The notes beneath the pieces were generated by a model that saw nothing but the letters and a program-made list of their open reading frames with translations, made no database searches and had not been told where the DNA came from. Below, piece after piece: positions 1 through 13,358 of a stretch of 14,368 nucleotides of DNA. How positions within the stretch are numbered: position 1 is the stretch's first letter; every line of letters begins with the position of its first letter. The stretch covers positions 1 through 14,368 of the forward strand of contig JAEZNF010000292.1 of NCBI GenBank assembly GCA_023441845.1, given 5' to 3'. The position numbers were made by a program, and so were the translations under genes. The DNA is from Bacillota bacterium (GTDB taxonomy: Bacteria; Bacillota; Clostridia; Acetivibrionales; DSM-2933).

Positions 1-147
1 GAATTATTCATTATTATACCAATTATATAATTCTAATACAACACGTATGCTTCTCAAAAATCGAAAGATTAAATATTTCCAGATGAATTATAATAAATAG
101 ATGCGGGAAAGATATATTTAAAGAAGATGTGAAAAGGAGTTGTAACT

Positions 148-369
148 ATGAGTAGAACACCCTTAGACAGAGTAGCATTAGTAGTTGTGATAATTGGAGC
201 CTTAAACTGGTTGCTTGTTGGATTATTCCGGTATGACCTGGTAGCTGCATTATTTAATACATCATCGTCAATAACAAGCAGAATAATATATACCATTGTC
301 GGCCTTGCCGGGTTATACTGCGTAAGCCTGCTATTCAGGGAAAGCGCTCCTATAAAGAACGAAAGCTGA
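148..369 (+). CDS. DUF378 family small membrane protein
   Basis: Encodes 73 residues with two hydrophobic segments, about residues 9-27 and 46-63. It carries the family hallmark of a GALNW-L-VG-F motif in the first helix, a DLV--LF stretch after it, and R-IYT-VGLAGLY at the second helix. These match the DUF378 family of short inner-membrane proteins, whose biochemical role is not known. The start is set by AAAAGGAG about 8 bases upstream of the ATG. The gene stands alone and is followed by a strong hairpin terminator at 456-496. No signal peptide or catalytic residue is visible. The length is normal for the family. Confidence 0.9.
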   Translation: MSRTPLDRVALVVVIIGALNWLLVGLFRYDLVAALFNTSSSITSRIIYTIVGLAGLYCVSLLFRESAPIKNES

Positions 370-455
370 TTACTGCACAGGCAGTTATCAAACTCACAAT
401 ATTTGAAGAATAACTGGTTAAAGAATCTACCTGATTACTCTTCAAGAAATAGCAT

Positions 456-496
456 TAATTAAAATAGCGCCCTTAAAGCAGGCGCTATTTTAATTA
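456..496 (+). terminator. Rho-independent terminator, probably bidirectional
   Basis: A 16-bp perfect stem (456-471 pairing with 481-496) flanks a 9-base loop. The GC-rich core is GCGCC/GGCGC, with an A-run before it and a T-run after it, so it can end transcription on either strand. It lies about 90 bases after the DUF378 gene. Confidence 0.85.
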
Positions 497-594
497 TATA
501 AACTCTTTTTAGATTGTTCTTTAATATCAACACTCAATTTGTTGCCGGCCGATCCCCTTACTGCATCTAACCCAAGGAAACAAAGTATGGCTCC

Positions 595-600
595 TTGACA
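595..600 (+). promoter_or_regulatory. Possible -35 element (TTGACA) upstream of the SASP-like gene
   Basis: A perfect TTGACA lies 85 bases upstream of the 686 start. No good TATAAT follows at 16-18 bases, because that place is occupied by the left edge of the 26-bp palindrome. If used, the promoter would be overlapped by the palindrome. I found no convincing sigma-G pair. Confidence 0.25.
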
Positions 601-616
601 AAAATTCCAGAATACA

Positions 617-642
617 AAATTAATTTTTGCAAAAATTAATTT
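617..642. repeat. 26-bp perfect palindrome
   Basis: Bases 617-642 read identically on both strands, centred on the GC at 629-630 (core ATTTTTGCAAAAAT). With no loop it is more likely a dimeric-protein operator than a transcription terminator. It lies 43 bases upstream of the SASP-like start codon. AT-rich composition makes short palindromes common, but 13 matched base pairs without interruption is more than expected by chance. Confidence 0.6.
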
Positions 643-685
643 AATGTAATACTCTTTTTAAGTCAAAAAAACTGGAGGGCTTTCT

Positions 686-856
686 ATGTCCGGATTTAAA
701 CTATTTAATGGCACAAAAGGGATGTTTAAAGCAATGAAATATGAAATCTCAAAAGAGCCCGGAATTGAAACAGATTTAAAGCATCTTAACGCTAAAGATG
801 AGAAGGGTATCGACGATGCCATGATAAATAAGATAATTGAACTGTCGGAAAAATAG
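686..856 (+). CDS. Short alpha/beta-SASP-like spore protein
   Basis: A 56-codon gene with a near-perfect ribosome-binding site (CTGGAGGG, 673-680) 5 bases before the ATG. The protein has MKYEISKEPGI, which resembles the germination-protease site region of alpha/beta small acid-soluble spore proteins (KYE-[IV]-A-x-E-[LF]-G). It ends with AMINKIIELSEK, resembling the C-terminal MV-K-MIE-AE helix of that family. The Gly-rich middle is replaced by KDEKGIDDA. Full alpha/beta SASPs are usually 60-75 residues and bind DNA in the spore. This one is shorter and keeps Lys/Glu-rich ends, so it may be a diverged member. Expression late in the forespore is expected if the assignment is right, but no clear sigma-G promoter is visible. 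Confidence 0.6.
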   Translation: MSGFKLFNGTKGMFKAMKYEISKEPGIETDLKHLNAKDEKGIDDAMINKIIELSEK

Positions 857-905
857 CAGTCATCATTTATCCGGGTCTTTGGAACGCACCCTAAGCAAAG
901 ACTTA

Positions 906-980
906 TATAAAACGCAGGCCGGGTCTATAGTGCTCCTTATAAATTTGAGAACCGCAATAGACCCGGCCGCCGTGTTTATA
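906..980. terminator. Large hairpin between convergent genes
   Basis: A perfect 12-bp GC-rich stem (917-928 GGCCGGGTCTAT with 957-968) extends outward through a two-base mismatch and one bulge to pair 906-914 with 972-980. It encloses a 28-base loop. On the minus strand the closing arm is followed by TGCGTTTTATAT, so it would serve as the yebC terminator. On the plus strand it follows the SASP-like gene and is followed by GTGTTTATA. The loop is longer than in ordinary terminators. Confidence 0.6.
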
Positions 981-1050
981 ATACGAACTATTAATTATTG
1001 CAAAAATACGCCCTGCGAATTTATCGGAATCTTAGTGTTTGGTTATAATC

Positions 1051-1797
1051 CTATTCCTCATCCTCTTCCTCAGGCATATCCCAGTTATGGAAAACATTCT
1101 GCACATCATCCATGTCCTCAAGGTACTCAATCAATTTATCCATAAGTTCAATCTGCTTGGCATCGGTAAGCTTTGTTGTCGTAACCGGCACCAGTTCAAC
1201 ATCTGCTTCTAAGAACTCATATCCCTTACTCTCTAGGTTTGTCCTTACACCTGAAAAATCATCAGGACCGGTAGTTATTTCATAATACTCGTCTTCAACC
1301 TTGAAGTCTTCAGCGCCTGCATCAATAGCCTCCATCATAATGTCATCTTCATTTATCCTGTCCGATTTTTCAACCAAAATAATACCCTTTTTATTGAACA
1401 TAAAGGATACGCAGCCTGTAGTACCGAGATTCCCGCCGAATTTGTCAAAGTAATGTCTTACATCACCGGCAGTCCTGTTTTTATTGTCAGTCGTTGCCTC
1501 AACAATAACTGCAACACCACCCGGTCCATAGCCCTCATATGTTATTTCTTCATAGTCGGCGCCGCCCTGCTCACCCGAAGCCTTTTTTATACATCTCATT
1601 ATATTATCGTTCGGCATGTTTGCAGCCTTTGCTTTTGCTATTGCATCCTTAAGTTTTGAATTAGACTCCGGGTCCGGGCCGCCTTGTTTAACAATAATAG
1701 CTATTTCCCTTCCGAGCTTGGTAAAAATTTTACCCTTCTGAGAATCTGTTTTTTCTTTTTTACGTTTAATATTCGCCCATTTAGAATGTCCTGACAT
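1051..1797 (-). CDS. yebC: YebC/PmpR (TACO1) family protein
   Basis: Encodes 248 residues, the normal length for this family. The diagnostic N-terminus [14 protein letters not shown] is present, followed by [10 protein letters not shown], an internal NMPNDNI stretch, and [14 protein letters not shown]. The C-terminal half is strongly acidic and ends in EEEDEE. Family members were first described as DNA-binding regulators and more recently as ribosome-associated factors that ease stalling, as the mitochondrial homologue TACO1 does. Which role applies here cannot be told from sequence. The ATG is preceded by AAGGAGGA at good spacing. It is a single-gene unit, convergent with the SASP-like gene and divergent from the kinase. 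Confidence 0.97.
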
Positions 1798-2050
1798 ATA
1801 AATCCTCCTTAATCAAATACAACTATCATTATTCAAAAAGCAGAATCCGCTTTATCATATACCTTCCATTTAACAAATTCCGCTCAAAAATCCAAACTGC
1901 AATTTATATTGATAAACTTTATGAAATTCTACACGGTATAAATTATAATATTAAAAACAAAATTAATAAAGAATTTTTTATTTAATTTTGCTTCCAGTTT
2001 ACTTTTTATATTATATTTTCTTTATTTTTGAAATAAATAATAAAAATGTA

Positions 2051-2079
2051 TTTACAATAGCAGTAAATTTATGTAGAAT
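2051..2079 (+). promoter_or_regulatory. Sigma-A type promoter of the histidine kinase
   Basis: TTTACA (2051-2056), a 17-base spacer, then TAGAAT (2074-2079), which is 5/6 at both hexamers. Transcription would start near 2086. That leaves no room for translation from the TTG at 2092 and supports the ATG at 2128. The rest of the 1798-2127 spacer is very AT-rich, and I see nothing else certain in it apart from the yebC ribosome-binding site. Confidence 0.6.
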
Positions 2080-2111
2080 GTTTATGGTATTTTGTGGATT
2101 TTTATAATAAC

Positions 2112-2118
2112 AGAGGTG
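2112..2118 (+). promoter_or_regulatory. Ribosome-binding site that fixes the kinase start
   Basis: AGAGGTG lies 9 bases before the ATG at 2128 and only 3 before the ATG at 2122. This favours 2128 over both 2122 and the upstream TTG at 2092. Confidence 0.6.
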
Positions 2119-2127
2119 TATATGTAT

Positions 2128-3264
2128 ATGCATAGAAAGTTAACTATAAATAACATTAGGAACCTTATTCTCCTGATTTCCGCAGCATTTATAATCTTAT
2201 TCAACTTAAGTGTTCTTTACTTTATTAAAAATTATTCGATTCTTTATAAAGACATGGATTATAGAACGCGGCAACCTATTTTAGGGGTAATTACGGCCAT
2301 TTTAGTATCCATTTTAGTATCCATTTTAACAATCTTATTAATTATATTAAGTTATAAAAAAATGAAGCAAAAGGAAATTATAATAGCAAAGCAAAAAGAG
2401 GAAATCGAAAATCAAAAAAAAATAATAGAAACCGTTTCAATGCTCTACAATAATATCCTGGAAGATGACAAACTTAAAACAGAATTTTTCTCATCAATAT
2501 CTCATGAGTTAAAAACCCCCATAACCGTCATCCTCGGAGCAATTCAGCTGATAGATCAAAACAAGCCGCCACACATTGATGAGAAGAGAAAATCATCAAA
2601 ACATTTTACAGCTATAAGGCATAATTGTTATAGACTCCTCCGCCTTATTAACAACATTCTCGACATCACGAGAATTGATTCGGGCTATATTAAAGTATCG
2701 CTTGTAAACTGCAATATTGTATACCTGGTCGAAGAAATAACCCAGTCTGTAGCCCCATATGCCAAAAATAAAGGAATTTCGCTTGAATTTGATACTGAAA
2801 GCGAGGAAATATATACGGCAGTTGATATTGACAAAATAGAACGAATAATCCTCAATCTGCTTTCGAACGCAATAAAATTTACACCTGCAGGAGGCCTTAT
2901 AACTGTTAAAGTAGGAAAATCGGGAGATAATGTTACAATTTCGGTTAAAGATACCGGTCCTGGAATACCTAAGAATATGCAGACAATTATCTTTGACAGG
3001 TTCAATCAGGTTAACAGTTCTCTTACCAGAGAATTTGAGGGAAGCGGAATCGGCCTGTCTCTTGTAAAGTCTTTTGTTTCTCTTCACAAAGGAAGTGTTG
3101 AGCTGATAAGCGAAGAAACTAAAGGGAGCGAGTTTATTATTGAACTGCCAATTTTCTTATGTGAGAATGACAAACTGGACAGTATATACATTAAAAACTG
3201 CCAAAATAAAATAATTGAGGCTATTAACATTGAATTTTCAGATATTTATTCAGTTTGCTGTTAA
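2128..3264 (+). CDS. Orphan membrane-bound sensor histidine kinase
   Basis: A 378-residue sensor kinase when started at 2128. Two membrane helices (about residues 12-34 and 50-76) enclose only a very short outer loop, so sensing may be within the membrane. A Lys/Glu/Gln-rich coiled coil follows (78-103). The dimerisation/phosphoacceptor domain has SHELKTP with His126. The ATPase domain shows the N box NLLSNAIKFTP (Asn247), the G1 box KDTGPGIP, the F box FDRFNQ and the G2 box GSGIGLSLVKSF. There is no PAS or HAMP domain. After the ATPase domain lies a tail of about 35 residues ending EFSDIYSVCC, a type of ending I associate with clostridial kinases of this class. No response regulator is adjacent, so its partner is encoded elsewhere. 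Confidence 0.92.
   Translation: MHRKLTINNIRNLILLISAAFIILFNLSVLYFIKNYSILYKDMDYRTRQPILGVITAILVSILVSILTILLIILSYKKMKQKEIIIAKQKEEIENQKKIIETVSMLYNNILEDDKLKTEFFSSISHELKTPITVILGAIQLIDQNKPPHIDEKRKSSKHFTAIRHNCYRLLRLINNILDITRIDSGYIKVSLVNCNIVYLVEEITQSVAPYAKNKGISLEFDTESEEIYTAVDIDKIERIILNLLSNAIKFTPAGGLITVKVGKSGDNVTISVKDTGPGIPKNMQTIIFDRFNQVNSSLTREFEGSGIGLSLVKSFVSLHKGSVELISEETKGSEFIIELPIFLCENDKLDSIYIKNCQNKIIEAINIEFSDIYSVCC
2297..2330 (+). repeat. 12-bp tandem repeat inside the kinase gene
   Basis: CCATTTTAGTAT occurs twice in tandem (2297-2308, 2309-2320), followed by a partial third copy (2321-2330, ending AAC). It encodes ILVS-ILVS-ILTI within the second membrane helix. The unit is a multiple of three, so copy-number change keeps the frame but would lengthen or shorten the helix by four residues. 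Confidence 0.85.
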
Positions 3265-3277
3265 GTTAATTAATTAT

Positions 3278-3652
3278 TCATATTAAAGCAACAAGGACAC
3301 AGGCCTTTACGGCTGTTAAGCCATTCTTGTCTATTATATCCATCAGCTCTTCGTTATGTGTCCCCGGCTGAAGCCATATGTTTTTTATTCCCAATTCAGC
3401 AGCCTCTTTTATTACCGGAATTCCGCGCTTGGGCGAAACTACCATGTCTATTACATCGGGCTTTTTGGGTAGAGACGACAGGTCCTTATAGCATTTATCT
3501 CCTTCAACAGTCTCATAATTCGGATTCACAGGATAGACCTCGTATCCCTTTGCCCTGAGTTTTCTATATATCATATTTCCATATTTTCCAGGATTTTCGT
3601 TGGCTCCAACCACAGCCCATACTTTTCTATCGAGCATCATTTCTTCCAGCAT
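3278..3652 (-). CDS. CoA-binding domain protein (YccU-like)
   Basis: A 124-residue stand-alone Rossmann-fold protein of the CoA_binding_2 type. Its order is a VWAVVGANENPGKYGN nucleotide loop near the N-terminus, GYEVYPVNPNY, DVIDMVVSP, and GIKNIWLQPGTHNEE. This matches the CoA-binding half of acyl-CoA synthetases, found alone in many bacteria and without a proven function. The open frame extends to a TTG at 3667, but that codon lies within the ribosome-binding site. GGAGGA (3660-3665) sits 7 bases before ATG 3652, which I take as the start. The gene ends 13 bases from the convergent kinase with no clear terminator between them. Confidence 0.92.
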   Translation of the reverse strand: MLEEMMLDRKVWAVVGANENPGKYGNMIYRKLRAKGYEVYPVNPNYETVEGDKCYKDLSSLPKKPDVIDMVVSPKRGIPVIKEAAELGIKNIWLQPGTHNEELMDIIDKNGLTAVKACVLVALI

Positions 3653-3659
3653 GTTATTC

Positions 3660-3665
3660 TCCTCC
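3660..3665 (-). promoter_or_regulatory. Ribosome-binding site that fixes the CoA-binding protein start
   Basis: GGAGGA on the minus strand, 7 bases before ATG 3652. It overlaps the upstream TTG reading, which it excludes. Confidence 0.85.
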
Positions 3666-3685
3666 AATTCTACTTAGGGTCACTT

Positions 3686-3765
3686 AAAATATTACTTCCA
3701 CTTTCTAAGCGGGCGCTTCGTGGCATCCACCGGGGGTGCAGCACAATTATAATGGAAGTTATTTT
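3686..3765 (-). other. GC-rich structured spacer upstream of the CoA-binding gene
   Basis: Between yigZ and the CoA-binding gene, an outer stem pairs 3686-3691 plus 3694-3700 (ACTTCCA) with 3753-3765 (two-base bulge). Inside it lie smaller hairpins: AAGC-GCCC-GCTT and CACC/GGTG on a GC-rich island in AT-rich surroundings. On the minus strand the outer stem ends in TATTTT, so it may be the yigZ terminator. Its size and the inner stems also allow a structured leader. No known riboswitch core was recognised. Confidence 0.4.
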
Positions 3766-3803
3766 TTAACCGTGCTCTAAGTGTGCTTAAAAACAGTCTT
3801 TCT

Positions 3804-4475
3804 TTATGCATTCCTGCCCTCGTCTTTTTCGATGATCTTACCTTTCTCATCTACCGTTATATAAATGTTTTCGCCTGTTTCCATAATTGCTCTTGCGTTA
3901 GTTGCCTCAACAACAGTATTTATAAATCCCTCTACTTCATCAGACTGTATATACAATGTAATCTCAACATCCTGTCCATAGACAATATCCTTTACAACGT
4001 ATCCACTCGCGCTAAACATGCTTTGCAGCTTCCCAAACAACGTATACTCAACTATTATATTAACCTCTGTACACAATAGTCTCCTTACAATCACGGCATT
4101 TTCTATTCCCACTGAAGCGCACTTGCTGTACGCTCTAATAAGCCCCGCTGCTCCAAGAAGCGTACCTCCGAAATATCTTGTCACAACTACAACAACATCC
4201 TGTACTCCCATTCTTTTTATAACCTCAAGCACAGGCATTCCGGCTGTTCCGGACGGTTCACCGTCATCACTGAATCTCTGTATTATATTATTCCCGCAAA
4301 TATAATAAGAATAAACATTATGTGTCGCATCCCAGTATTTGGACTTAATCTGATTTATAAACGCTACCGCCTCATCTTCGTCCTGAATAGGTTTAACCGA
4401 TGCAATAAACCTTGACTTTTTTTCTTCTGTTTCTCCTAAAGCCTGTCTTAATACAGTCTTGTATTCTCTTTGCAA
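3804..4475 (-). CDS. yigZ: IMPACT/YigZ (YvyE) family protein
   Basis: A 223-residue protein with the two-domain layout of the YigZ/YvyE family. The N-terminal UPF0029/IMPACT domain has KKSRFIA, ATHNVYSYY, the signature DDGEPSGTAGMPVLEVI and VVVTRYFGGTLLGAAGLIRAY. A DUF1949-type C-terminal domain follows, and the protein ends in a charged tail. Family members are thought to act in translation or nucleic-acid-linked stress responses, but no enzymatic function is settled. The frame opens at a GTG (4484), but AAAGGTG (4482-4488) overlaps that codon and sits 6 bases before TTG 4475, giving the N-terminus MQREYKTV. I take the TTG as the start. Confidence 0.92.
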   Translation of the reverse strand: MQREYKTVLRQALGETEEKKSRFIASVKPIQDEDEAVAFINQIKSKYWDATHNVYSYYICGNNIIQRFSDDGEPSGTAGMPVLEVIKRMGVQDVVVVVTRYFGGTLLGAAGLIRAYSKCASVGIENAVIVRRLLCTEVNIIVEYTLFGKLQSMFSASGYVVKDIVYGQDVEITLYIQSDEVEGFINTVVEATNARAIMETGENIYITVDEKGKIIEKDEGRNA

Positions 4476-4481
4476 ATTAAT

Positions 4482-4488
4482 CACCTTT
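4482..4488 (-). promoter_or_regulatory. Ribosome-binding site implying a TTG start for yigZ
   Basis: AAAGGTG on the minus strand is separated by ATTAAT from TTG 4475. The GTG inside the site itself cannot use it as a ribosome-binding site. Confidence 0.6.
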
Positions 4489-4510
4489 AATAACTTATAT
4501 TTTATACATA

Positions 4511-4551
4511 AAAAAGAATAAAGATAGTAATAACATTACCATCTTTATTCT
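4511..4551 (-). terminator. Rho-independent terminator after the NUDIX gene
   Basis: A 17-base stem (4515-4531 with 4535-4551, one A/C mismatch) has a three-base loop. On the minus strand it is followed by a T-run (plus-strand A-run 4511-4515). It lies 38 bases beyond the NUDIX stop and separates that gene from yigZ. Confidence 0.85.
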
Positions 4552-4589
4552 AACACTTTCCGTATAATTATTTAACGGTTTTTTATATT

Positions 4590-5024
4590 TTAGCTCACCA
4601 TCTGGCAATCGATCTCAAGAAACTTTTTATACGACAAATTTAACAAAGACTTATCCTGGCTGTAAGTAATACGGCTCATGGCCTCTTCAATTTCAAAAAA
4701 ACCCCCGTCAATAAACTTTTCTTTTTCTTCTTCGTTGATTTTATAATCTTCACTATCCGATTTCATGATATACCACGTAATTTTGTTACAGACTGGTTTT
4801 TGACGTGTTACAGAAAAGAACTCATAATTGGTATTTCCGGCAGTTGATACGATTTCAGCATTTATTCCTGCCTCTTCCCTGACCCTTCTTACAGCAACTT
4901 CACTGGATAAATCCCCTCGGCGAATAACTCCCTTCGGAAGTACCCATTCGCCCTTCTCGTTTTTAAGTAAAAATACCTTGTTGTTAAAGAAAACTAATCC
5001 TCCTGCACAGTTCCTGACAAGCAT
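4590..5024 (-). CDS. NUDIX-fold protein with altered Nudix box
   Basis: A 144-residue NUDIX-fold protein. The N-terminal strand AGGLVFF, GEWVLPKG before the box, and ITWYIM later fit the fold. The Nudix box (residues 32-54) should read G-x5-E-x7-R-E-U-x-E-E-x-G-U. Here the first Glu is Asp38 and the Glu of the RE pair is Arg47, while Glu50, Glu51 and Gly53 remain. In MutT the residue equivalent to Arg47 is thought to be catalytic, so hydrolysis may be weak, altered or lost, with a binding or regulatory role possible. The frame extends up to an ATG at 5096, but that has no ribosome-binding site. GAAAGGGG (5033-5040) precedes ATG 5024 by 8 bases. Confidence 0.85.
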   Translation of the reverse strand: MLVRNCAGGLVFFNNKVFLLKNEKGEWVLPKGVIRRGDLSSEVAVRRVREEAGINAEIVSTAGNTNYEFFSVTRQKPVCNKITWYIMKSDSEDYKINEEEKEKFIDGGFFEIEEAMSRITYSQDKSLLNLSYKKFLEIDCQMVS

Positions 5025-5032
5025 ATAAAAAA

Positions 5033-5040
5033 CCCCTTTC
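5033..5040 (-). promoter_or_regulatory. Ribosome-binding site that fixes the NUDIX start
   Basis: GAAAGGGG on the minus strand, 8 bases before ATG 5024. The upstream ATG at 5096 has no such site. Confidence 0.75.
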
Positions 5041-5139
5041 AATTTTTTATTATCGGCCTTGTTCGGTGTAGTGCTAAAACAATTGTTATGTAGCATGTTA
5101 TAGATAATAACTGCGTTTTAAAAATATCTTACTATTATT

Positions 5140-5168
5140 ATAATACACTTTGCCTAAATAATATACAA
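5140..5168 (-). promoter_or_regulatory. Possible promoter of the NUDIX gene
   Basis: On the minus strand, TTGTAT (5163-5168), 17 bases, then TATTAT (5140-5145). The -10 is 5/6 but the -35 only 3/6. It would give a leader of about 105 bases before the start at 5024. Confidence 0.3.
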
Positions 5169-5218
5169 TATCGGGAAATCAATTTGTAAAAATTCTGTGA
5201 ATTACGGGCTGCCTGTAC

Positions 5219-7030
5219 CTATAAAATATAATCTTTTATCCTGTCAACCTTTGATTTCTTGATTAAAGCCCTCACCTTTATTCCCGATTCGGCATATTCC
5301 TCTTCAAGCAAAGAACCATTCTTATATAAATAAGGAATTATCCACCCCTCACTGTAGGGAGCAATTATATTTACTTCTATTTCATCCTGGGAAAGCATCT
5401 CCAGGATGCCTTTAATAAGTTCGTCCAACCCTATTCCGGTGCTGGCTGAAACCTCAAAAACCCGCCCTTTTATTTCCGAGGCAATTGGGGGAATTTCGGT
5501 TTTAACAAGATCAACCTTGTTTAGTATAAGGAGCACAGGTTTGTTTAAGGCCCCCAGGCTTGCCAGAATATCATTAACAACAGATATTTGTTCTTCGGCC
5601 TCTTGGCTTGATATATCGACCACATGAGCGAGTATATCCGCATACACCGCCTCTTCCATTGTAGACTTGAATGCCTCGACCAGTTCATGAGGAAGCTTTC
5701 TTATAAATCCTACAGTATCTACCAAAAGGGCTTCCCGGCCATTCGGCAGGTTTAATTTCCTTGTTGTCGGGTCCAATGTCGCAAATAGCTTATTTTCTGC
5801 AAAAACCTCGGTCTTGCAAAGAGTATTCATAAGAGTCGATTTGCCTACATTGGTATACCCTACCAGAGCAATTACAGGTACGGTATTTTTTCTTCTTCCT
5901 TCCCGGGCAAATTCCCTGCGGGTGCTTAAGTTGTCCAATTCCCATTCAAGAAAACGTATTCTCCTCTTTATGTGCCTCCTGTCAACTTCAAGCTTTTTCT
6001 CACCGGGGCCTCGTGTACCGATTCCGCCGCCAAGCCTGGATAATTGACCGCCTAATCCTATTAGCCTGGGCAGTCTGTATTTTAATTGCGCAAGCTCTAC
6101 CTGAAGTTTGCCTTCCTTAGAGCGCGCCCGCTGTGCAAATATATCAAGTATAAGCGTCGTTCTATCAACAACCTTGATTCCAACAACATCTTCAATGTTT
6201 CTTGTCTGTGCTCCCGAAAGCTCCATATCGAAAATGACAACGTCAGCATTTAGCGACTGGCATATCAGGCCGATTTGCTCTACCTTTCCCTTTCCGATAT
6301 GATAAGCAGGGTCTTTAACAGGCCTTGACTTCATTATTTTATAAACGGTATCGACACCCGCAGTTGCCGCCAGCTCGCTTAGTTCATCCAGAGACCTTTC
6401 TCCCTCGCTTTTCCCGTTTATCATGCGGCCCGACATTGTTTCCATACCGACCAATACGGCTCTTTCAACCTCGGTTTCGTTTCTGTAGGTTATGTTGCCC
6501 GTATACTTGTCCTTCTTGATTATCGACTCAAATATGGCATTAATGGCTTCATCATGAATATTAACCGATTCATAAACTTCCGCTGAAGTAAATTCACCGT
6601 CCTCATCCCTTAAAGGAATTGCAAAGCAGGTTTCTTTAAGCTCACCGTCTTTTACTCCCAAAGCAATCATTGCGTCCAGTCTCAAATTCAGAAGCGAACT
6701 TATGTCTACCGAAGATAGCCTGCCGTCACCCGTCGGGTGAGTATGTATACACCTGATGCCGGAGAGTTTCTTTTTATTCCTGTAACCTTCAAACTCAGGC
6801 AGGGACACCGTGCTGCTGTCCCCGATGCTTACATCAATTACAGAGCCTTTTCTGTTAAGGTAAACAGCTATCTCACGATTTATTTTTCCCGTCAGCACGG
6901 CCATTTTTCCGGCAAGCTCAGCCGGTATCAATTCAAAACCCGACAGCTCAAGGTCATATATGCTCTCAAGCTCCTTTATAATCGAATCCTTTAAAGATAC
7001 TACATTTCCGTTAATATTAATGTGCTCCAC
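5219..7030 (-). CDS. hflX: GTPase HflX with N-terminal JAMM-like domain
   Basis: A 603-residue ribosome-associated GTPase. HflX splits stalled or stressed ribosomes in other bacteria. The HflX part starts near residue 188 (ERAVLVGME). It has the Gly-rich segment GGQLSRLGGGIGTRGPGEKK (327-346), then G1 GYTNVGKST (391-399), G3 DTVG (438-441), G4 NKVD (504-507) and G5 SAS (528-530), plus a C-terminal domain. Ordinary HflX is about 400-430 residues. The first 185 residues are an added domain with His96-x-His98-x7-Ser106-x2-Asp109, exactly the JAMM pattern, and a plausible upstream Glu53 in a RadC-like strand (REIAVYLNRKG). The called start is GTG 7030, which forms the end of AGAGGTG. An ATT 9 bases downstream is better spaced. 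Confidence 0.95.
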   Translation of the reverse strand: MEHININGNVVSLKDSIIKELESIYDLELSGFELIPAELAGKMAVLTGKINREIAVYLNRKGSVIDVSIGDSSTVSLPEFEGYRNKKKLSGIRCIHTHPTGDGRLSSVDISSLLNLRLDAMIALGVKDGELKETCFAIPLRDEDGEFTSAEVYESVNIHDEAINAIFESIIKKDKYTGNITYRNETEVERAVLVGMETMSGRMINGKSEGERSLDELSELAATAGVDTVYKIMKSRPVKDPAYHIGKGKVEQIGLICQSLNADVVIFDMELSGAQTRNIEDVVGIKVVDRTTLILDIFAQRARSKEGKLQVELAQLKYRLPRLIGLGGQLSRLGGGIGTRGPGEKKLEVDRRHIKRRIRFLEWELDNLSTRREFAREGRRKNTVPVIALVGYTNVGKSTLMNTLCKTEVFAENKLFATLDPTTRKLNLPNGREALLVDTVGFIRKLPHELVEAFKSTMEEAVYADILAHVVDISSQEAEEQISVVNDILASLGALNKPVLLILNKVDLVKTEIPPIASEIKGRVFEVSASTGIGLDELIKGILEMLSQDEIEVNIIAPYSEGWIIPYLYKNGSLLEEEYAESGIKVRALIKKSKVDRIKDYIL

Positions 7031-7034
7031 CTCT
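7028..7034 (-). promoter_or_regulatory. Ribosome-binding-site-like motif overlapping the hflX GTG start
   Basis: AGAGGTG on the minus strand includes the GTG called as start. It stands 6 bases before an ATT codon (7019-7021), the same geometry as the yigZ site and its TTG. Either GTG is used with a weak upstream site, or initiation is at ATT. Confidence 0.35.
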
Positions 7035-7264
7035 ACATACAGTTATTTCTTAATATTATAAACTAATGGCCCGTAAAATAAAACATAAAACTGATTTGAT
7101 TTTAAAAGGGGTAATAAGGAATTTTACCGAATATGTAGTATGAGATAAATTAAAGTAAGGGAGTATACCATCAATGATATACATAGCACTACTTTTTATT
7201 TTAGCTTCTGTTTAAATTGGTATATATTTTCAGTACCCCCATTTTTGGTTGATTGAGGGATAAC
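7031..7264. other. AT-rich spacer without a supported gene
   Basis: This is the left part of the 408-base gap between hflX and the dismutase gene. Apart from the possible hflX promoter I see only a 13-codon frame (7174-7215, MIYIALLFILASV) with GGGAG 10 bases upstream, enclosed by a 7-bp inverted repeat (7164-7170 with 7218-7224). That is too little to call a gene. Confidence 0.5.
7055..7060 (-). promoter_or_regulatory. Possible -10 element of hflX
   Basis: A perfect TATAAT on the minus strand, 24 bases before the GTG. The -35 region at 17 bases (TTTTAT) is poor, so the call is weak. Confidence 0.3.
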
Positions 7265-7293
7265 TTGACAAATAAACCGCAAGAAAATATGTT
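7265..7293 (+). promoter_or_regulatory. Plus-strand promoter without a downstream ORF
   Basis: A perfect TTGACA (7265-7270), a 17-base spacer, then TATGTT (7288-7293, 4/6). The predicted start is near 7300. No open frame follows before the terminator at 7396-7430. Confidence 0.45.
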
Positions 7294-7299
7294 AGAGTT

Positions 7300-7430
7300 T
7301 GTCATTTTCTACTATAATTTGGGCTTCGGGTTATTATAATCATTAAGGGTATATTAGGTCTTCTATAACTATCAGATTTAAATCAAAATAAATTTAAAAA
7401 CAGCAGATCATTGACAAATCTGCTGTTTTT
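7300..7430 (+). ncRNA. Candidate small RNA of about 130 nt
   Basis: The interval is bounded by a promoter-like element at 7265-7293 and a strong terminator at 7396-7430 in the same orientation. No ribosome-binding site with a credible ORF lies between them. No known RNA family was recognised. The terminator may simply belong to the minus-strand dismutase gene, which would leave this transcript without support. Confidence 0.3.
7396..7430. terminator. Bidirectional terminator after the dismutase gene
   Basis: A perfect 13-bp stem (7396-7408 AAAAACAGCAGAT with 7418-7430) and a 9-base loop, with five T on either strand. It lies 8 bases beyond the dismutase stop on the minus strand. It could also end a plus-strand transcript. 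Confidence 0.9.
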
Positions 7431-7438
7431 AATTATTT

Positions 7439-7954
7439 TCAGGCCATTCCGTACGCTTGTATTACACCGCAAGCCAATTTCTTTCCTGCTCCGCCAGCCG
7501 GCTGCGTTTTGTAATCGTCAGGGCCTTGATGTATTATAACCGATTTGCCAATAACATCGGCTGCTCTGAACTTGTTTGTAAAAAAGCACATCCTCGCTGC
7601 TCCGCCATTTGAAAACAAAACCGGGAAATCCCCTGCATGATTGCCATGTGGCTGGCCAGTAGGATTCCAATGCTCTCCGGCAGCCATAAACGGGTCATTT
7701 TGATCCCCCACATCACAATTTCCGTTATTGTGAATATGGAATCCATGAGGTCCTACCTGCGGCTTTCCATTCGCAGCCGGCTGGAATGGCGGCAGTCCTG
7801 ATACACTCACGCATACCATTGTCCCCCCCATAACATCCGTAAAAGTCACTATCCCGTTGATTGCCGGTGCCAGCGGCCCGCCTTTTATATAAGCCTGTAC
7901 TCTTACTGCGGTGTTCACACGTTGATAATATGGGCTATTATAATACATAATCAT
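7439..7954 (-). CDS. sodC: Cu/Zn superoxide dismutase family protein
   Basis: A 171-residue Cu/Zn superoxide dismutase fold. All metal ligands are visible: the copper/bridging histidines in GFHIH (His73, His75), then His95, His103, His106 and Asp109 in GEHWNPTGQPHGNHAGD, and His142 in IIHQGPDD. The structural disulfide pair is Cys80 and Cys162 (LACGVI). The active-site Arg normally found just before LACGV is Lys159. There is no signal peptide or lipobox. The N-terminus is Tyr-rich (MIMYYNSPYYQR), unlike the exported enzymes of other bacteria. The frame opens at a TTG at 7966 that lies in the ribosome-binding site. GGAGG (7961-7965) precedes ATG 7954 by 6 bases. Confidence 0.92.
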   Translation of the reverse strand: MIMYYNSPYYQRVNTAVRVQAYIKGGPLAPAINGIVTFTDVMGGTMVCVSVSGLPPFQPAANGKPQVGPHGFHIHNNGNCDVGDQNDPFMAAGEHWNPTGQPHGNHAGDFPVLFSNGGAARMCFFTNKFRAADVIGKSVIIHQGPDDYKTQPAGGAGKKLACGVIQAYGMA

Positions 7955-7960
7955 CAATAC

Positions 7961-7965
7961 CTCCA
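7961..7965 (-). promoter_or_regulatory. Ribosome-binding site that fixes the dismutase start
   Basis: GGAGG on the minus strand, 6 bases before ATG 7954. A second ATG at 7948 is 12 bases away and less likely. Confidence 0.8.
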
Positions 7966-8021
7966 AAAAATCTACTTTATATACATTATGTAGATCGATT
8001 GGAGTATGTGATTGGCCTGTG

Positions 8022-8825
8022 CTATAACTCTTTTTTATGGGCCTTGAAAATCAGTTCATGCCCAAGATCCGTTGGATGGATGTCGTAGGATTCATAGAAA
8101 TGCGTAAGTTTTGCTATATCTCCATACTCATTAAAGAGCTTGTAAACCTCTACTACTTTATAGCTGTTCTTATCTTTTTCAGCCTCTGTTCTTATAGTCG
8201 AGTTTATACTGTTTATCAAATTATCTGCTATAGCATACAAATTATCATCCTTTTTGAACGGATCATATACAGTCATGGCCAGTATTTTTACATCGGGATT
8301 GAGCTTTTTTATAGCCTGGATAATTTTCGTCCAGTCACTGGAAAAACCGGCTACACTTCTGCTTACAGCTACAAAGTCTATCTTCCCGTTGGCTACGTCA
8401 GACCCTCCTAAAAGGTTGTTCCCCCCTATGCTGATTGTTATAACGTCAGCCGTTTTTATGGCACTTTGGGTAGATTTGCAAACCTTTATGGCATAATCTC
8501 TCAGCTCAAAATCCTTAGGTTCTGAAGAAACGGCTAATTCCGGGTTTGTCAGTTGGAGCAGCAATTGAGAGGATGTTATACCCGGGATTGTCAAATTTTC
8601 AACGCTGAAGGATTTGTATTTTTTTGACAAATACCCGCTCATACGACCCACATAGCTCTTATCGGAGGACGATGCTCCAATTCCATAAGCAATTGAATCA
8701 CCGAGCGGAACATATTTCAAGCTTTTCTTTGTATCCTTTGAATAATCGAAAATTGATGTTTGAAAAGGAAATGATATAAAAATTAAAACAGCCGTTATTA
8801 GAGAAATAAATTTGAATCTTATCAT
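8022..8825 (-). CDS. Secreted SGNH/GDSL-family hydrolase
   Basis: A 267-residue esterase or lipase-like protein of the SGNH superfamily. The N-terminus MIRFKFISLITAVLIFISFPF is a signal peptide or membrane anchor without a lipobox Cys. Block I is LGDSIAYG with nucleophile Ser44, block II has Gly82 (TIPG), block III is IGGNN with Asn136, and block V is DIHPTDLGH with Asp248 and His250. All four catalytic positions are therefore intact. The substrate cannot be told; acyl groups on wall polymers or polysaccharides are common for secreted members. The longer frame starts at 8870, but GGAGGGG (8836-8842) points to ATG 8825. It is divergent from the ltaS-like gene. Confidence 0.9.
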   Translation of the reverse strand: MIRFKFISLITAVLIFISFPFQTSIFDYSKDTKKSLKYVPLGDSIAYGIGASSSDKSYVGRMSGYLSKKYKSFSVENLTIPGITSSQLLLQLTNPELAVSSEPKDFELRDYAIKVCKSTQSAIKTADVITISIGGNNLLGGSDVANGKIDFVAVSRSVAGFSSDWTKIIQAIKKLNPDVKILAMTVYDPFKKDDNLYAIADNLINSINSTIRTEAEKDKNSYKVVEVYKLFNEYGDIAKLTHFYESYDIHPTDLGHELIFKAHKKEL

Positions 8826-8835
8826 AATAGAACTT

Positions 8836-8842
8836 CCCCTCC
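8836..8842 (-). promoter_or_regulatory. Ribosome-binding site that fixes the GDSL hydrolase start
   Basis: GGAGGGG on the minus strand lies 10 bases before ATG 8825. That start places a typical signal peptide at the very N-terminus. Confidence 0.75.
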
Positions 8843-8876
8843 AGTGAAGTCTTAAAAGTATTTTCAACACACTATT

Positions 8877-8905
8877 ATTCTATTATATTTAAATACAGAT
8901 GGCAA
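8877..8905 (-). promoter_or_regulatory. Promoter of the GDSL hydrolase
   Basis: On the minus strand, TTGCCA (8900-8905), 17 bases, then TAGAAT (8877-8882), which is 5/6 at both hexamers. The RNA would begin near 8870, about 45 bases before the ATG. Confidence 0.55.
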
Positions 8906-8925
8906 TTGTGCTGCTTAATGTTTAG

Positions 8926-9123
8926 TATTGGTTTCTTCTGACAAAAATTCTTACCATAATTTTTCTTGTAGAGCACGGTTTTTCGGCAACAATCGGACAC
9001 TTATTCAATTATGAAGGCCTGAGCTCTGATGTCAAGGCTTACTATGCGAACCGTTTGAAGATTGCACTGTCACACCCGCTTAGCTATTGGAAAAACCTTG
9101 ACTGGAATTTGAATCTTGAGTAA
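8926..9123 (+). pseudogene. Orphan C-terminal coding fragment
   Basis: After a TAG at 8923-8925, 65 codons stay open to a TAA at 9121-9123, with no ATG/GTG/TTG start in frame. From about codon 15 the translation reads as ordinary globular protein: VEHGFSATIGHLFNYEGL, then AYYANRLKIALSHPLSYW, ending NLDWNLNLE. Base composition in this part is higher in GC than the flanks and fits coding sequence. I do not recognise the family. It looks like the 3' end of a gene whose front was deleted, lying between the divergent GDSL and ltaS-like genes. Confidence 0.5.
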
Positions 9124-9198
9124 AAGTCCCTGTGCCATTCCATATAGTATAAGCTATCCTAAAGGAGTAACTAGAAAAGCGTGTCAATACTATCCGTA

Positions 9199-9227
9199 TT
9201 GAATTTATTTTTCATTTAATATAGAAT
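9199..9227 (+). promoter_or_regulatory. Promoter of the ltaS-like gene
   Basis: TTGAAT (9199-9204), a 17-base spacer, then TAGAAT (9222-9227), which is 4/6 and 5/6. The predicted start near 9234 gives a leader of about 35 bases. Confidence 0.45.
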
Positions 9228-9269
9228 TAGATGATGATTTAAATTCAAAGATATAGGAGTGAAATTGTT

Positions 9270-11156
9270 TTGTTTAAGAATAGACAAATATTTAAAAATA
9301 ATGGGACGACCTCCAATAAACCTTTTCTGATCCTGGAAATTGCCTTTATGATACTTTTAATCCTTTCACTTTTGATTAAATGTGCTTATTTCCACTATAC
9401 AACCGCACTGGCAACAGGAAAGGTTATATCACCGGACAATGCCGTTATGATGGGTTCTACACTAGGAACGGTCCTTATCGTCTTATCCTTTTGGTTTTTC
9501 TTGAAAAGAGGACGAAATGTAGCATTTCTAATAATTAATATATTTCTTACCATTGTGCTTATAGCGGACACGCTGTATTTCCGCTATTACTATAACGTTG
9601 TATCAATACCGGTTTTAACCAACCTTAAATTGATAAATTCCGTAGGAGACAGTGCAATAAGCCTGCTCAGGAAAAAGGACCTTATATATGTTATCGACTT
9701 GCCGTTTTTTTTGGCCGGCCTGATATTTTTGTGTAAAAAGAGCACCTTTAAATTGAATTTGTCAAAGAGGGCTATAGCTTTCGCTGTTATCGCAGTTTTG
9801 GGCGTTGTGTCTGTAAAGATCTCATATAGCAAGGATAATACAGATACATTTAAATATGACAATAACTATATAGTCAAAACCACAGGCTTGTTTTATTTCC
9901 ACTATCACGACATAAAGAATTATATAAAAGACAACCTGTTTGCTTCTAAAAAGCTCACTGCAGAAGAAAAGTCATTGATAGACGATTTCTATAAAAATAA
10001 ACCGGTAGTCACTAATCCCCAGTATAACGGTATTGCAAAGGGTAAAAACCTTATAATGGTTCAGGTTGAGGCACTACAGGAATTTGTTATAAACCGCAAG
10101 GTTAACGGACGGGAAATAACCCCCAATCTGAATAAGCTTATAAAGGAAACCTCATACTTCAATAACATGTATTATCAGGTCAGGGGCGGCAATACATCCG
10201 ATGCGGAATTTCTGACCAACGTTTCTCTCTACCCCTTAAAAGAGGGAGCGGTCTATTTCAGGTATCCCAACAGGACATATGAATCATTGCCCAAGATTTT
10301 AAAGCAGCAGGGCTATTCCACATACGTTTCCCATGCCAATAATGCAAGCTTCTGGAACCGTTCAACAATGTACGGTTCACTTGGGTTTGACAAATTTTTC
10401 AGTGCTCCCGACTATAAAATGGACGAGCTTATAGGATATGCAGGCTATTCACTGAGTGACGAATCTTTTTTCAGGCAAACTCTGGATAAGATCGATACCT
10501 CAAAGCCGTTTTACAGCTTTATGATTTCTATTTCGAGCCATCATCCGTTTTCATTTTTTGAAAACTACCAGTATAAGGATTTCAATGTCGGCAACATGGA
10601 GAAAACCTATTTAGGGAGATATTTCAAGTCCATCAACTACCTTGACCACTCTATCGGAGCATTGGTTGATGACCTTAAGAAGCGCGGATTGTATGACAAT
10701 ACCCTGCTTGTAATATACGGTGACCATTACGCAATACCTAAAACCGAGTCTGCCCAATTGATGAGCTTCCTTGGTCTTGAAAATAATGAATATGAGTGGA
10801 CAAAGCTCTTAAAGGTGCCTCTTATCATGCATTATCCGGGATTACCTCAGGGACAAACAATTGAGAAAACTTGCGGTGAAATAGACATAATGCCTACCAT
10901 AGCCAATATAATGGGTTTTGAAGCACCTCATGCTATGGGAACCGATCTTTTTAACAGCAAAGAAGGATTTGCCATCATAAAAAACAATGCACTGGTTACA
11001 GATAAATTCATCTATTTAAATGATGAGGAAAAAGTCTATGACATTAAGAAGAATGTGGTTTTAAACAAGAATGACTTTTTAAGTGAAATAGACAAACACA
11101 AAAATGATACAACCGCAGCAGATACAATTATTAAAAAGGATGCTTTCAAGAAATAA
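9270..11156 (+). CDS. ltaS: Lipoteichoic acid synthase-like membrane sulfatase-fold enzyme
   Basis: A 628-residue LTA synthase family protein. Five N-terminal membrane helices lie at about 18-40, 58-79, 84-105, 138-155 and 167-185, followed by an outward-facing sulfatase-fold domain. Family residues are present: Glu267 in VQVEAL, the catalytic Thr309 in RGGNTSDAEF, FWNR with Arg364, SSHHPF with His424, and metal-binding Asp485-His486 in YGDHYA. In LtaS these bind Mn and form the phosphoglycerol-threonine intermediate that extends lipoteichoic acid from phosphatidylglycerol. Polymer type in this organism is unproven, so a related phosphoglycerol transferase is possible. The start is TTG 9270 with AGGAG (9255-9259) 10 bases upstream. 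No separate terminator is visible before the SOS promoter. Confidence 0.93.
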   Translation: MFKNRQIFKNNGTTSNKPFLILEIAFMILLILSLLIKCAYFHYTTALATGKVISPDNAVMMGSTLGTVLIVLSFWFFLKRGRNVAFLIINIFLTIVLIADTLYFRYYYNVVSIPVLTNLKLINSVGDSAISLLRKKDLIYVIDLPFFLAGLIFLCKKSTFKLNLSKRAIAFAVIAVLGVVSVKISYSKDNTDTFKYDNNYIVKTTGLFYFHYHDIKNYIKDNLFASKKLTAEEKSLIDDFYKNKPVVTNPQYNGIAKGKNLIMVQVEALQEFVINRKVNGREITPNLNKLIKETSYFNNMYYQVRGGNTSDAEFLTNVSLYPLKEGAVYFRYPNRTYESLPKILKQQGYSTYVSHANNASFWNRSTMYGSLGFDKFFSAPDYKMDELIGYAGYSLSDESFFRQTLDKIDTSKPFYSFMISISSHHPFSFFENYQYKDFNVGNMEKTYLGRYFKSINYLDHSIGALVDDLKKRGLYDNTLLVIYGDHYAIPKTESAQLMSFLGLENNEYEWTKLLKVPLIMHYPGLPQGQTIEKTCGEIDIMPTIANIMGFEAPHAMGTDLFNSKEGFAIIKNNALVTDKFIYLNDEEKVYDIKKNVVLNKNDFLSEIDKHKNDTTAADTIIKKDAFKK

Positions 11157-11168
11157 TTATGCTTTTTC

Positions 11169-11197
11169 TTGACACGAACACCTGTTCGTGATAATTT
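11169..11197 (+). promoter_or_regulatory. Promoter of the topoisomerase pair
   Basis: A perfect TTGACA (11169-11174), then 17 bases to TAATTT (11192-11197) with a TG one base before it (extended -10). GATAAT at a 15-base spacing is an alternative -10. The spacer contains the LexA-like box. The -35 starts 12 bases after the ltaS-like stop codon. Confidence 0.6.
11175..11188. promoter_or_regulatory. LexA/DinR SOS box
   Basis: CGAACACCTGTTCG is an exact CGAAC-N4-GTTCG palindrome, the Gram-positive LexA operator form. It begins directly after the -35 hexamer, so bound LexA would block polymerase. The flanking A/T makes the hairpin 8 bp if transcribed, but no T-run follows, so a terminator is the weaker reading. 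Confidence 0.8.
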
Positions 11198-11202
11198 TAT
11201 AG

Positions 11203-11340
11203 ATGTACCCGTAAGGCTCGGGGCTGTTCGTAAGCCTTGGCCACATAGACGAGCAATGTAGCGAAGCGAAATGACCGGTCCCTCACCTTTTGCCTCATTT
11301 CCCTTTGGAAATGGCCGCTAATAAAAGGGTTGGGAAATAC
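11203..11340 (+). other. Structured leader of the topoisomerase operon
   Basis: Stem 1 pairs ATGT (11203-11206) with ACAT (11243-11246), and AAGGCT (11213-11218) with AGCCTT (11233-11238). A later compound stem pairs CCC--CCTTTT with AAAAGG--GGG and encloses CATTTCC-CTTT-GGAAATG, ending shortly before the ribosome-binding site. A segment in between contains the direct repeat AGCGAAGCGAA. The region is more GC-rich than other spacers. It may be a regulatory leader or a dispersed intergenic repeat. No known riboswitch core was recognised. Confidence 0.4.
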
Positions 11341-11367
11341 AGATAAGAAGCAAGCATGGAGGTTTAA

Positions 11368-13347
11368 ATGAGTAAACAAAACAAAATAGACAAGTATGGG
11401 AACGAGAGTATATCATCGCTAAAAGGCGCAGATAGGGTCAGGCTTCGTCCCGGTGTTATTTTCGGTTCTGACGGACTTGAGGGATGCCAGCATTCCGTAT
11501 TTGAGATTTTGTCAAACTCCATTGATGAAGCAAAGGAAGGCTATGGCAGTGTAATAGAAGTAACAAGGTACAAAGACCATTCAATTATGGTAAAAGACTA
11601 CGGAAGAGGAATTCCGCTTGATTATAACCCTAAAGAGGAGAGGTATAACTGGGAACTCGTTTTCTGCGAACTCTACGCAGGCGGAAAATATAAAAACAAC
11701 TCGGGTGAGAATTATGAATTCAGCCTTGGATTAAACGGTCTCGGAAGCTGTGCAACCCAGTACAGCTCGGAATACATGGATGTTACCGTCTATAGGGACG
11801 ATTATAAATACGAGCTGCACTTTGAAAAAGGCGAAAACATCGGCGGACTTAAAAAGGAAAAGTTCAAGTCGGAGACTACAGGAACCATAATAAAATGGAA
11901 GCCTGATCTTGACGTATTTACAGACATAAATATACCCCTGGAATACTTCGATACCGTTTTGAAAAAACAGGCGGTTGTAAATTCGGGCATAGTCTTCAAG
12001 CTGTTCGATGAGGAATCGGGTGAAAACTTTGAGTACTGCTATCAGGACGGAATTGTGGATTATGTTAAAGAAATCAGTAAAGACAAGGGATTTACCGAGG
12101 TCCAATTCTATGAAACCTCCACAAAAGGCCGTGACAGGGAAGACAAACCCGAGTACAAGGTTAAAATGCAAATTGCCTTTTGCTTTAACAATGAAATTAA
12201 TTTAATTGAATATTACCACAACTCAAGCTTTTTAGAGTACGGCGGTGCGCCTGATAAAGCTGTTAAGGCGGCATTTGTATATGAAATTGACAAATGCCTA
12301 AAGGCTCAGAGTAAATATACCAAAGATGAGTCCAGGATTACCTATGCCGACATACAGGACAGCCTTATACTTGTAACCAACTCATTTTCAACCGTTACAA
12401 GCTATGAAAACCAGACAAAAAAATCAATAACCAATAAGTTTATTCAGGATGCCATGACCGAGTTTTTAAAGCAGCAGCTGGAAATCTATTTCATAGAAAA
12501 CAAGCTGGAAAGCGATAAGATTTTGGAGCAGATCCTGGTTAACAAGAGAAGCAGGGAAACGGCTGAAAAGACAAGGATTAATATAAAAAAGAAACTGAGC
12601 GGTAATGTAGATATATCAAACCGTGTTAAAAAGTTTGTAGACTGCCGCTCAAAGGACATTAATAAGAGGGAAGTATATATAGTGGAAGGCGATTCTGCTC
12701 TTGGAGCCTGTAAGCTGGGAAGAGACGCAGAATTTCAGGCAATCATACCGGTAAGGGGTAAGATTTTAAACTGCCTCAAAGCCGATTATGACGGCATATT
12801 TAAAAGTGAAATCATTGTAGACCTCTTAAAGGTTTTGGGGTGCGGGGTAGAAATACAGTCAAAACACAACAAGGACCTTAATACTTTTGACCTTAACAAT
12901 CTCAGGTGGAATAAAGTCATAATATGCACTGACGCTGATGTTGACGGTTTTCAGATAAGAACATTGATTCTGGCAATGCTTTACAGGCTTGTTCCTACCC
13001 TTATACAGGTTGGAAAGGTCTTTATTGCGGAGTCACCGCTTTTTGAAATAACAACAAAGAATAAAACTTATTTTGCATATTCGGATAAGGAAAAGAACGA
13101 CATACTGGCAAAGCTTGACGGCAAGTATACAATACAGCGTTCGAAAGGACTCGGTGAAAATGAACCTGAGATGATGTGGCAAACCACCATGAATCCTGAA
13201 ACCAGAAGACTAATACAGGTAGTGCCTGACGATGCGGAAATGACTGGACAGTATTTCGACCTTCTTCTGGGTGACAATCTGCAGGGCCGAAAGAATTTTA
13301 TCGAACAAAACGGGCACAAGTACCTTGAAATGATAGATGTAAGCTAA
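11368..13347 (+). CDS. parE: Type II topoisomerase subunit B, ParE-like
   Basis: A 659-residue ATPase subunit of a type II DNA topoisomerase. The GHKL ATPase domain has EILSNSIDEA (Glu46, Asn50), KDYGRGIP (Asp77) and the lid GLNGLGS (121-127). A transducer domain follows with QTKK (349-352). The Toprim domain has VEGDSALG (Glu440), TDADVDG (Asp522/524/526) and QRSKGLGE (590-597). Length fits ParE or short GyrB. Several signatures differ from housekeeping gyrase: RLRPGVIFGS for RPGMYIG, a GLNGLGS lid for GGLHGVG, and DGFQIRTL for DGAHIRTL. It is therefore a diverged topoisomerase IV-type subunit. The ATG has TGGAGG 6 bases upstream, and the gene is followed 11 bases later by its partner. Confidence 0.93.
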   Translation: MSKQNKIDKYGNESISSLKGADRVRLRPGVIFGSDGLEGCQHSVFEILSNSIDEAKEGYGSVIEVTRYKDHSIMVKDYGRGIPLDYNPKEERYNWELVFCELYAGGKYKNNSGENYEFSLGLNGLGSCATQYSSEYMDVTVYRDDYKYELHFEKGENIGGLKKEKFKSETTGTIIKWKPDLDVFTDINIPLEYFDTVLKKQAVVNSGIVFKLFDEESGENFEYCYQDGIVDYVKEISKDKGFTEVQFYETSTKGRDREDKPEYKVKMQIAFCFNNEINLIEYYHNSSFLEYGGAPDKAVKAAFVYEIDKCLKAQSKYTKDESRITYADIQDSLILVTNSFSTVTSYENQTKKSITNKFIQDAMTEFLKQQLEIYFIENKLESDKILEQILVNKRSRETAEKTRINIKKKLSGNVDISNRVKKFVDCRSKDINKREVYIVEGDSALGACKLGRDAEFQAIIPVRGKILNCLKADYDGIFKSEIIVDLLKVLGCGVEIQSKHNKDLNTFDLNNLRWNKVIICTDADVDGFQIRTLILAMLYRLVPTLIQVGKVFIAESPLFEITTKNKTYFAYSDKEKNDILAKLDGKYTIQRSKGLGENEPEMMWQTTMNPETRRLIQVVPDDAEMTGQYFDLLLGDNLQGRKNFIEQNGHKYLEMIDVS

Positions 13348-13358
13348 GGAGAACATAT

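Follow-up and report, generated by a model that had tools for sequence, protein, structure and literature searches.

The hflX gene of a Bacillota bacterium (lineage DSM-2933, assembly GCA_023441845.1) encodes an HflX GTPase that carries a JAMM-like domain at its N-terminus, joined to it by a short flexible linker. The gene lies on the minus strand at 5219..7030 of the stretch that we analysed, 14,368 nucleotides comprising positions 1 to 14,368 of JAEZNF010000292.1 (the window herein), and forms an open reading frame of 603 amino acids with a GTG start. HflX is a well-studied ribosome rescue and recycling factor, and the product was assigned to this family by its score against TIGR03156 (GTP_HflX; 456.7 bits versus a cut-off of 216.75) and by the presence of GTP-bdg_N, GTP-bdg_M and GTPase domains. 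GTP-bdg_N, the HflX ND1 domain, spans residues 211–299 (6134..6400, minus strand; PF13167, 105.8 bits), GTP-bdg_M, the HflX helical domain, spans residues 301–379 (5894..6130, minus strand; PF16360, 108.2 bits), and the GTPase domain spans residues 386–545 (5396..5875, minus strand; PF01926). The translation of the GTPase domain holds GYTNVGKST, DPTTR, DTVGF and NKVD, which we take to be the motifs of such a domain, and a C-terminal domain, residues 550–603 (5222..5383, minus strand), is covered by a structural match with HflX chains up to residue 603. The HflX core of the fusion is complete and, by analogy with the family, the fusion protein would be expected to split ribosomes.

Since all ten HflX-type PDB sequences (E ≤ 1e-20) matched the protein only from residue 180 or later, residues 1–178 are additional to known HflX proteins (TIGR03156), including those of E. 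coli, Listeria (HflXr) and human (GTPBP6). The best PDB sequence match was mycobacterial HflX, residues 39–466 of which align with residues 180–601 of the window's protein. Judged by title, ribosome-bound HflX structures come from Listeria, mycobacteria and human mitochondria; such a structure is available from E. coli too. No enzyme domain besides the GTPase was present in the HflX chains found, which were from E. coli, Listeria, mycobacteria, archaea and human (GTPBP6). A sequence-only reading of this DNA, made before any database search, had held that typical HflX lacks the N-terminal part; this is so for the proteins just named, but among the gene's own relatives the fusion is common.

The N-terminal domain is predicted to adopt a JAMM-like fold

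AlphaFold2 modelled residues 1–189 with a predicted local distance difference test score (pLDDT) of 83.1 and a predicted template modelling score of 0.80. While the sequence-only reading was right that an extra domain is present, the range it gave, 6463–7030, amounts to residues 1–189, and the confidently predicted part ends near residue 177 (about 6497). Using the model, structural realignment and conservation, we delimited the JAMM-like domain as residues 1–178 (6497..7030, minus strand). It is followed by a flexible linker, residues 179–188 (6467..6496, minus strand), around which pLDDT falls below 50 (residues 178–189 in the domain model, 176–186 in the full model). Foldseek alone gave a weak result for the predicted fold, but upon realignment with VIA-align 49 of the 50 listed rows were JAMM/MPN proteins; 17 of these 49, whose titles name only a complex, BubCD or Cap3, were presumed to be such. 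The comparison proposed in the sequence-only reading, a fold search against JAMM/RadC, thus led to JAMM/MPN proteins, and it supports a JAMM-like fold for residues 1–178. Deaminase and GAF folds were also considered for the domain and were rejected after the comparison with Foldseek and VIA-align.

The domain is not classed as a member of either of two Pfam families. Against Prok-JAB (PF14464) the window's domain scored 12 bits, below the cut-off of 25, and it was not filed as RadC because it had no match to Pfam RadC (PF04002) up to an E-value of 10. When 16 members were scanned singly, Prok-JAB matched nine (best E-value 0.0039) and RadC matched five (best E-value 0.003). Profile comparison by hhalign against 19 RadC fragments gave a score of 32.0 over 77 columns (probability 54%, E-value 1.3e-4) with the motif in register, compared with a maximum of 18.5 in 60 column shuffles. 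The proposed RadC likeness is therefore supported at the level of sequence profiles, over the Glu-bearing strand and HxH...SxxD, although Pfam does not recover it for the window's domain. HNHPSG is the RadC signature; it is absent from the domain, which has an invariant HTHP in its place and is fused to a GTPase, whereas 19 of 19 RadC fragments have HNHPSG, a count that is no proof of the signature since the fragments were selected by [HN]HPSG from 20 loci (one dropped). With AMSH/Sst2, Rpn11, Csn5 and AfJAMM/PfJAMM1 the domain shares low identity, and it differs from them in its ribosomal context and in being part of a fusion without a known ubiquitin-like substrate.

The JAMM motif is invariant among the aligned relatives

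Residues E53, H96-T97-H98, S106 and D109 match the JAMM/MPN+ motif EXnHS/THX7SXXD, which marks the active site of zinc proteases akin to ubiquitin-cutting enzymes, and the five residues E53, H96, H98, S106 and D109 lie exactly where the sequence-only reading had located them, their codons being verified on the plus strand. The expected catalytic Glu, E53, is in strand 53–59 (6872..6874, minus strand; plus-strand CTC). The expected zinc ligands are H96 in strand 92–98 (6743..6745, minus strand; plus-strand ATG), H98 (6737..6739, minus strand; plus-strand GTG) and D109 in helix 107–115 (6704..6706, minus strand; plus-strand GTC), and the expected transition-state Ser is S106 (6713..6715, minus strand; plus-strand AGA). 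According to the excerpted text of PMC300881, where EXnHS/THX7SXXD is defined, the corresponding residues of AfJAMM are E22 (catalytic Glu), H67, H69, S77 and D80, of which the His and Asp bind zinc, the Glu holds a water and the Ser is predicted to stabilise the intermediate; a Thr between the two motif His is found in relatives. The spacing from first His to Asp in AfJAMM, H-x-H-x7-S-x2-D, is the same as in the window's domain, in agreement with the earlier identification of this pattern as the JAMM zinc-binding one.

Relatives were listed as the best 120 of 571 matches, the best 120 of 520 (short relatives) and the best 120 of 7999, 311 proteins together including the window's own entry, and 288 of the 311 were aligned as a pool; 21 of the 120 from the 571-set (the window's entry and mostly near-identical rows) and two of the 120 from the 520-set were left out. 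Ten of 178 columns were strictly invariant among the 288: E53 and R60 (276 letters each), G70 (279), R93, H96, T97, H98 and P99 (280 each), and S106 and D109 (281 each), the rows without a letter being shorter sequences. The chance of the five named positions all falling within this set is about 2e-7, a figure that ignores the word-based collection of the relatives. The five residues were also without variation in separate alignments of 44, 100 and 119 sequences. Of the two findings that would have spoken against the sequence-only reading, a predicted fold unlike JAMM and motif residues varying freely among homologues, neither was obtained.

As the 571- and 520-sets had been gathered by words taken from the domain itself, the 7999-set was gathered instead with the HflX core of P0121, a distant member that is itself a JAMM-HflX. 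From this set 72 of the 120 were aligned (71 new proteins and P0121), the other 48 being already listed in the 571-set. All five residues were present in 60 of the 72; four rows start after E53 and have both His, the Ser and the Asp, one has the Ser and Asp, and seven have none of the positions, so that no substitution at the five sites was seen among the 72. Some of the seven may be partial genes. One of the core-gathered rows, P0292 (417 amino acids; contig of 7,951 bases), may be an HflX without the extra domain, or its start may have been miscalled.

The loop preceding the HxH strand, residues 71–91 (6758..6820, minus strand), was delimited by pLDDT and conservation. It is partly of low confidence, with pLDDT below 50 at 72–76 in the domain model and 72–84 in the full model. 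Its mean top-residue fraction is 0.63, versus 0.36–0.52 in segments 1–50 and 129–178 and 0.64–0.78 in the rest of the core, with 0.95 at V75, 0.89 at R84 and 0.98 at L89.

Other conserved residues lie outside the classical JAMM motif. These include the invariant arginines R60 (6851–6853) and R93 (6752–6754); by eye, an Arg counterpart of R60 is found in 15 of 19 RadC fragments and of R93 in none of the 19. C94 precedes H96 by two residues in the same strand (C-x-H-x-H); 278 of 280 rows have it, and its position is occupied by Ile in a Fusobacterium animalis protein (L024, 6010–7812).

JAMM-HflX is widespread among the gene's relatives

The JAMM-HflX fusion is widespread among the relatives of the gene and is not an oddity of the window. 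Names among the listed matches include Acetivibrio, Pseudobacteroides, Ruminiclostridium, Anaerobacterium and Clostridium thermosuccinogenes, with short or partial proteins from Caloramator, Peptococcaceae, Christensenellales and Phascolarctobacterium. Plasmid records yielded two matches, both from Fusobacterium (F. animalis and F. vincentii). The F. animalis protein has all five motif residues and 37% domain identity. The F. vincentii replicon (NZ_CP084075.1, 2.1 Mb) is catalogued as a plasmid, with a single annotated feature, but looks like a chromosome. It has only one HflX core match, which lies just downstream of the JAMM match in an open frame of the same length (610), and its RadC is separate from JAMM-HflX. 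The N-terminal domain had no match in phage records, nor in any of 198 genomes belonging to the same phylum as a metagenome-assembled Saprospiraceae genome, a search whose positive control recovered three of three known records; a genome contig scan with the full-length query had given a single locus, from Saprospiraceae, in which the GTPase matched at 26%. When viral contigs (IMG/VR) were scanned with the N-domain profile, a single locus matched, encoding a complete JAMM-HflX of 607 amino acids on a 15-kb contig (L023, 4989–6812), which is perhaps host DNA or mis-sorted.

Distances for the N-terminal domain and the HflX core correlate at 0.894 across 121 proteins, a value not corrected for shared ancestry and reached by none of 500 permutations, which fits a long joint inheritance of the two parts. 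Free-standing JAMM relatives may also exist. Among 118 short relatives (of the best 120 of 520), the HflX core stretch was reached in 52 and had no match at E ≤ 0.01 in 66, but by eye, over the last 25 residues of the 66 and the full sequences of eight short relatives, several of the 66 continue into the start of HflX or have tails resembling contig ends or frame changes. P0239 (188 amino acids, on an 856-kb contig) is a candidate free-standing form, and P0167 (235 amino acids, on a 2.6-Mb contig) contains the beginning of HflX. In P0209 and P0222 (contigs of 1,127 and 1,367 bases), the start of the JAMM domain is joined to PF00486 or PF06153; these are likely assembly chimeras.

JAMM-HflX as a possible ribosome-dependent hydrolase

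We propose that the domain is a catalytically competent zinc-dependent JAMM hydrolase carried by HflX, which would cut a ribosome-bound protein or peptide at the 50S face, a reading that we consider to have an even chance of being correct. Zinc binding, hydrolysis and a place on the ribosome are inferred. HflX would bind the 50S interface as usual, and the JAMM site would cut a peptide or isopeptide bond in a protein or peptide exposed on opening of a stalled 70S. The substrate might be a factor bound there, the tail of a ribosomal protein or what remains of a nascent chain, and ribosome splitting may in this way be tied to the processing of a component of the stalled complex. In Rpn11 and AMSH, the Ins-1 loop before the HxH strand grips the substrate tail. 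Loop 71–91 is a candidate substrate or gating loop that could likewise close on a substrate tail, confining cutting to the ribosome. We favour a ribosome-dependent hydrolase, active only with HflX on its ribosome and a peptide tail within range, because this loop is conserved, partly poorly predicted and at the place of Ins-1, and because the linker would carry the site to the 50S. Processing of bL27 was rejected as a role, as a cysteine protease is known for it.

A guide to the position of the domain is provided by mycobacterial HflX, whose N-terminal extension occupies the same place, before ND1; the extension has 39 or 58 residues according to the excerpted text of PMC12493154, compared with about 178 residues here, which form a folded domain and bear the motif of a metal site. 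In the same excerpt it contacts uL16 and helix 38 and extends to the H69–H71 junction. By analogy, and provided that binding is similar in the clostridial protein, the JAMM domain might be held near uL16, helix 38 and H69–H71, with the linker of about ten flexible residues carrying its site to this part of the 50S interface. A broader proposal is that in Clostridia and Fusobacteria JAMM-HflX acts as a protease gated by the ribosome, with the splitting of a stalled ribosome mechanically coupled, within a single polypeptide, to zinc-dependent cutting of a protein on the 50S. This is tentative, and we put its chances at short of even; in its logic JAMM-HflX would be the bacterial counterpart of Rpn11, a JAMM peptidase that shares its substrate with an NTPase machine.

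The domain could instead be a metal-dependent JAMM enzyme whose substrate is not ribosome-bound, acting in a RadC-like manner or trimming terminal residues off a small sulfur-carrier protein, an activity of other bacterial JAMM enzymes, with HflX only regulating or localising it. The profile relation that was tested and found is with RadC, the F. vincentii replicon has one ThiS-like and two ThiF-like matches, and the 66 short relatives without the core stretch leave room for free-standing forms. However, the ThiS match adjoins one ThiF far from hflX, in what we take to be a thiamine gene arrangement, the tails of several of the 66 are compromised as described above, and the long co-inheritance with the HflX core also speaks against this explanation, which we regard as fairly unlikely. 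For the same reason, the position of ThiS beside ThiF as in thiamine synthesis on the replicon tested, a deubiquitinase-like role is not favoured.

Among eukaryotic MPN domains, some serve as scaffolds without catalytic activity, and the domain might similarly bind metal as well as the tail of a peptide or protein without cutting, as a sensor or anchor for a particular stalled complex, or disorder rRNA. Non-catalytic MPN domains, however, lose motif residues, and no such loss, the mark of MPN- scaffolds, was found at the five sites (276–281 letters per column), where the Glu and Ser, needless for scaffolding, are invariant. In favour of a non-cutting role, the domain sits where mycobacterial HflX has its extension, which is reported to disorder H68–H71 (PMC12493154, in excerpt). 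We consider this explanation unlikely. Of the peptidase, deconjugase or structural roles offered in the sequence-only reading, the purely structural one appears unlikely because the Glu, zinc ligands and Ser are all retained. A coincidental resemblance of the motif to JAMM within another fold, such as a GAF-like or deaminase-like one, is very improbable, being already disfavoured by the 49 of 50 realigned JAMM/MPN rows (17 of them presumed to be such), the in-register RadC profile match above all shuffles and the invariance of all five residues.

Genes next to hflX

Immediately downstream of hflX and in the same orientation are genes for a NUDIX hydrolase (4590–5096, minus strand) and a UPF0029/DUF1949 protein (3804–4484, minus strand), the latter presumably YigZ/IMPACT-like, and hflX may therefore head a small operon with them. 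A Cu/Zn superoxide dismutase-like gene (7439–7966, minus strand; Sod_Cu, 102 bits) also lies beside hflX. Judged by its relatives, the host is probably anaerobic.

Significance of the fusion

No description of a JAMM-HflX fusion was found in the open-access literature searched, a search that left subscription papers and supplements aside. In the parts consulted, a 2006 survey of prokaryotic JAB architectures (PMC1779556) does not mention HflX, and the main text of PMC6310831, on HflX and difficile, does not contain the term 'N-terminal'. The excerpt of PMC300881, from 2003, terms the role of RadC-like JAMM domains unknown, and the fusion offers a functional handle on these domains, with five named residues whose mutation tests the idea. 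Ribosome splitting in these anaerobes may bring with it a chemical step of which our searches found no description.
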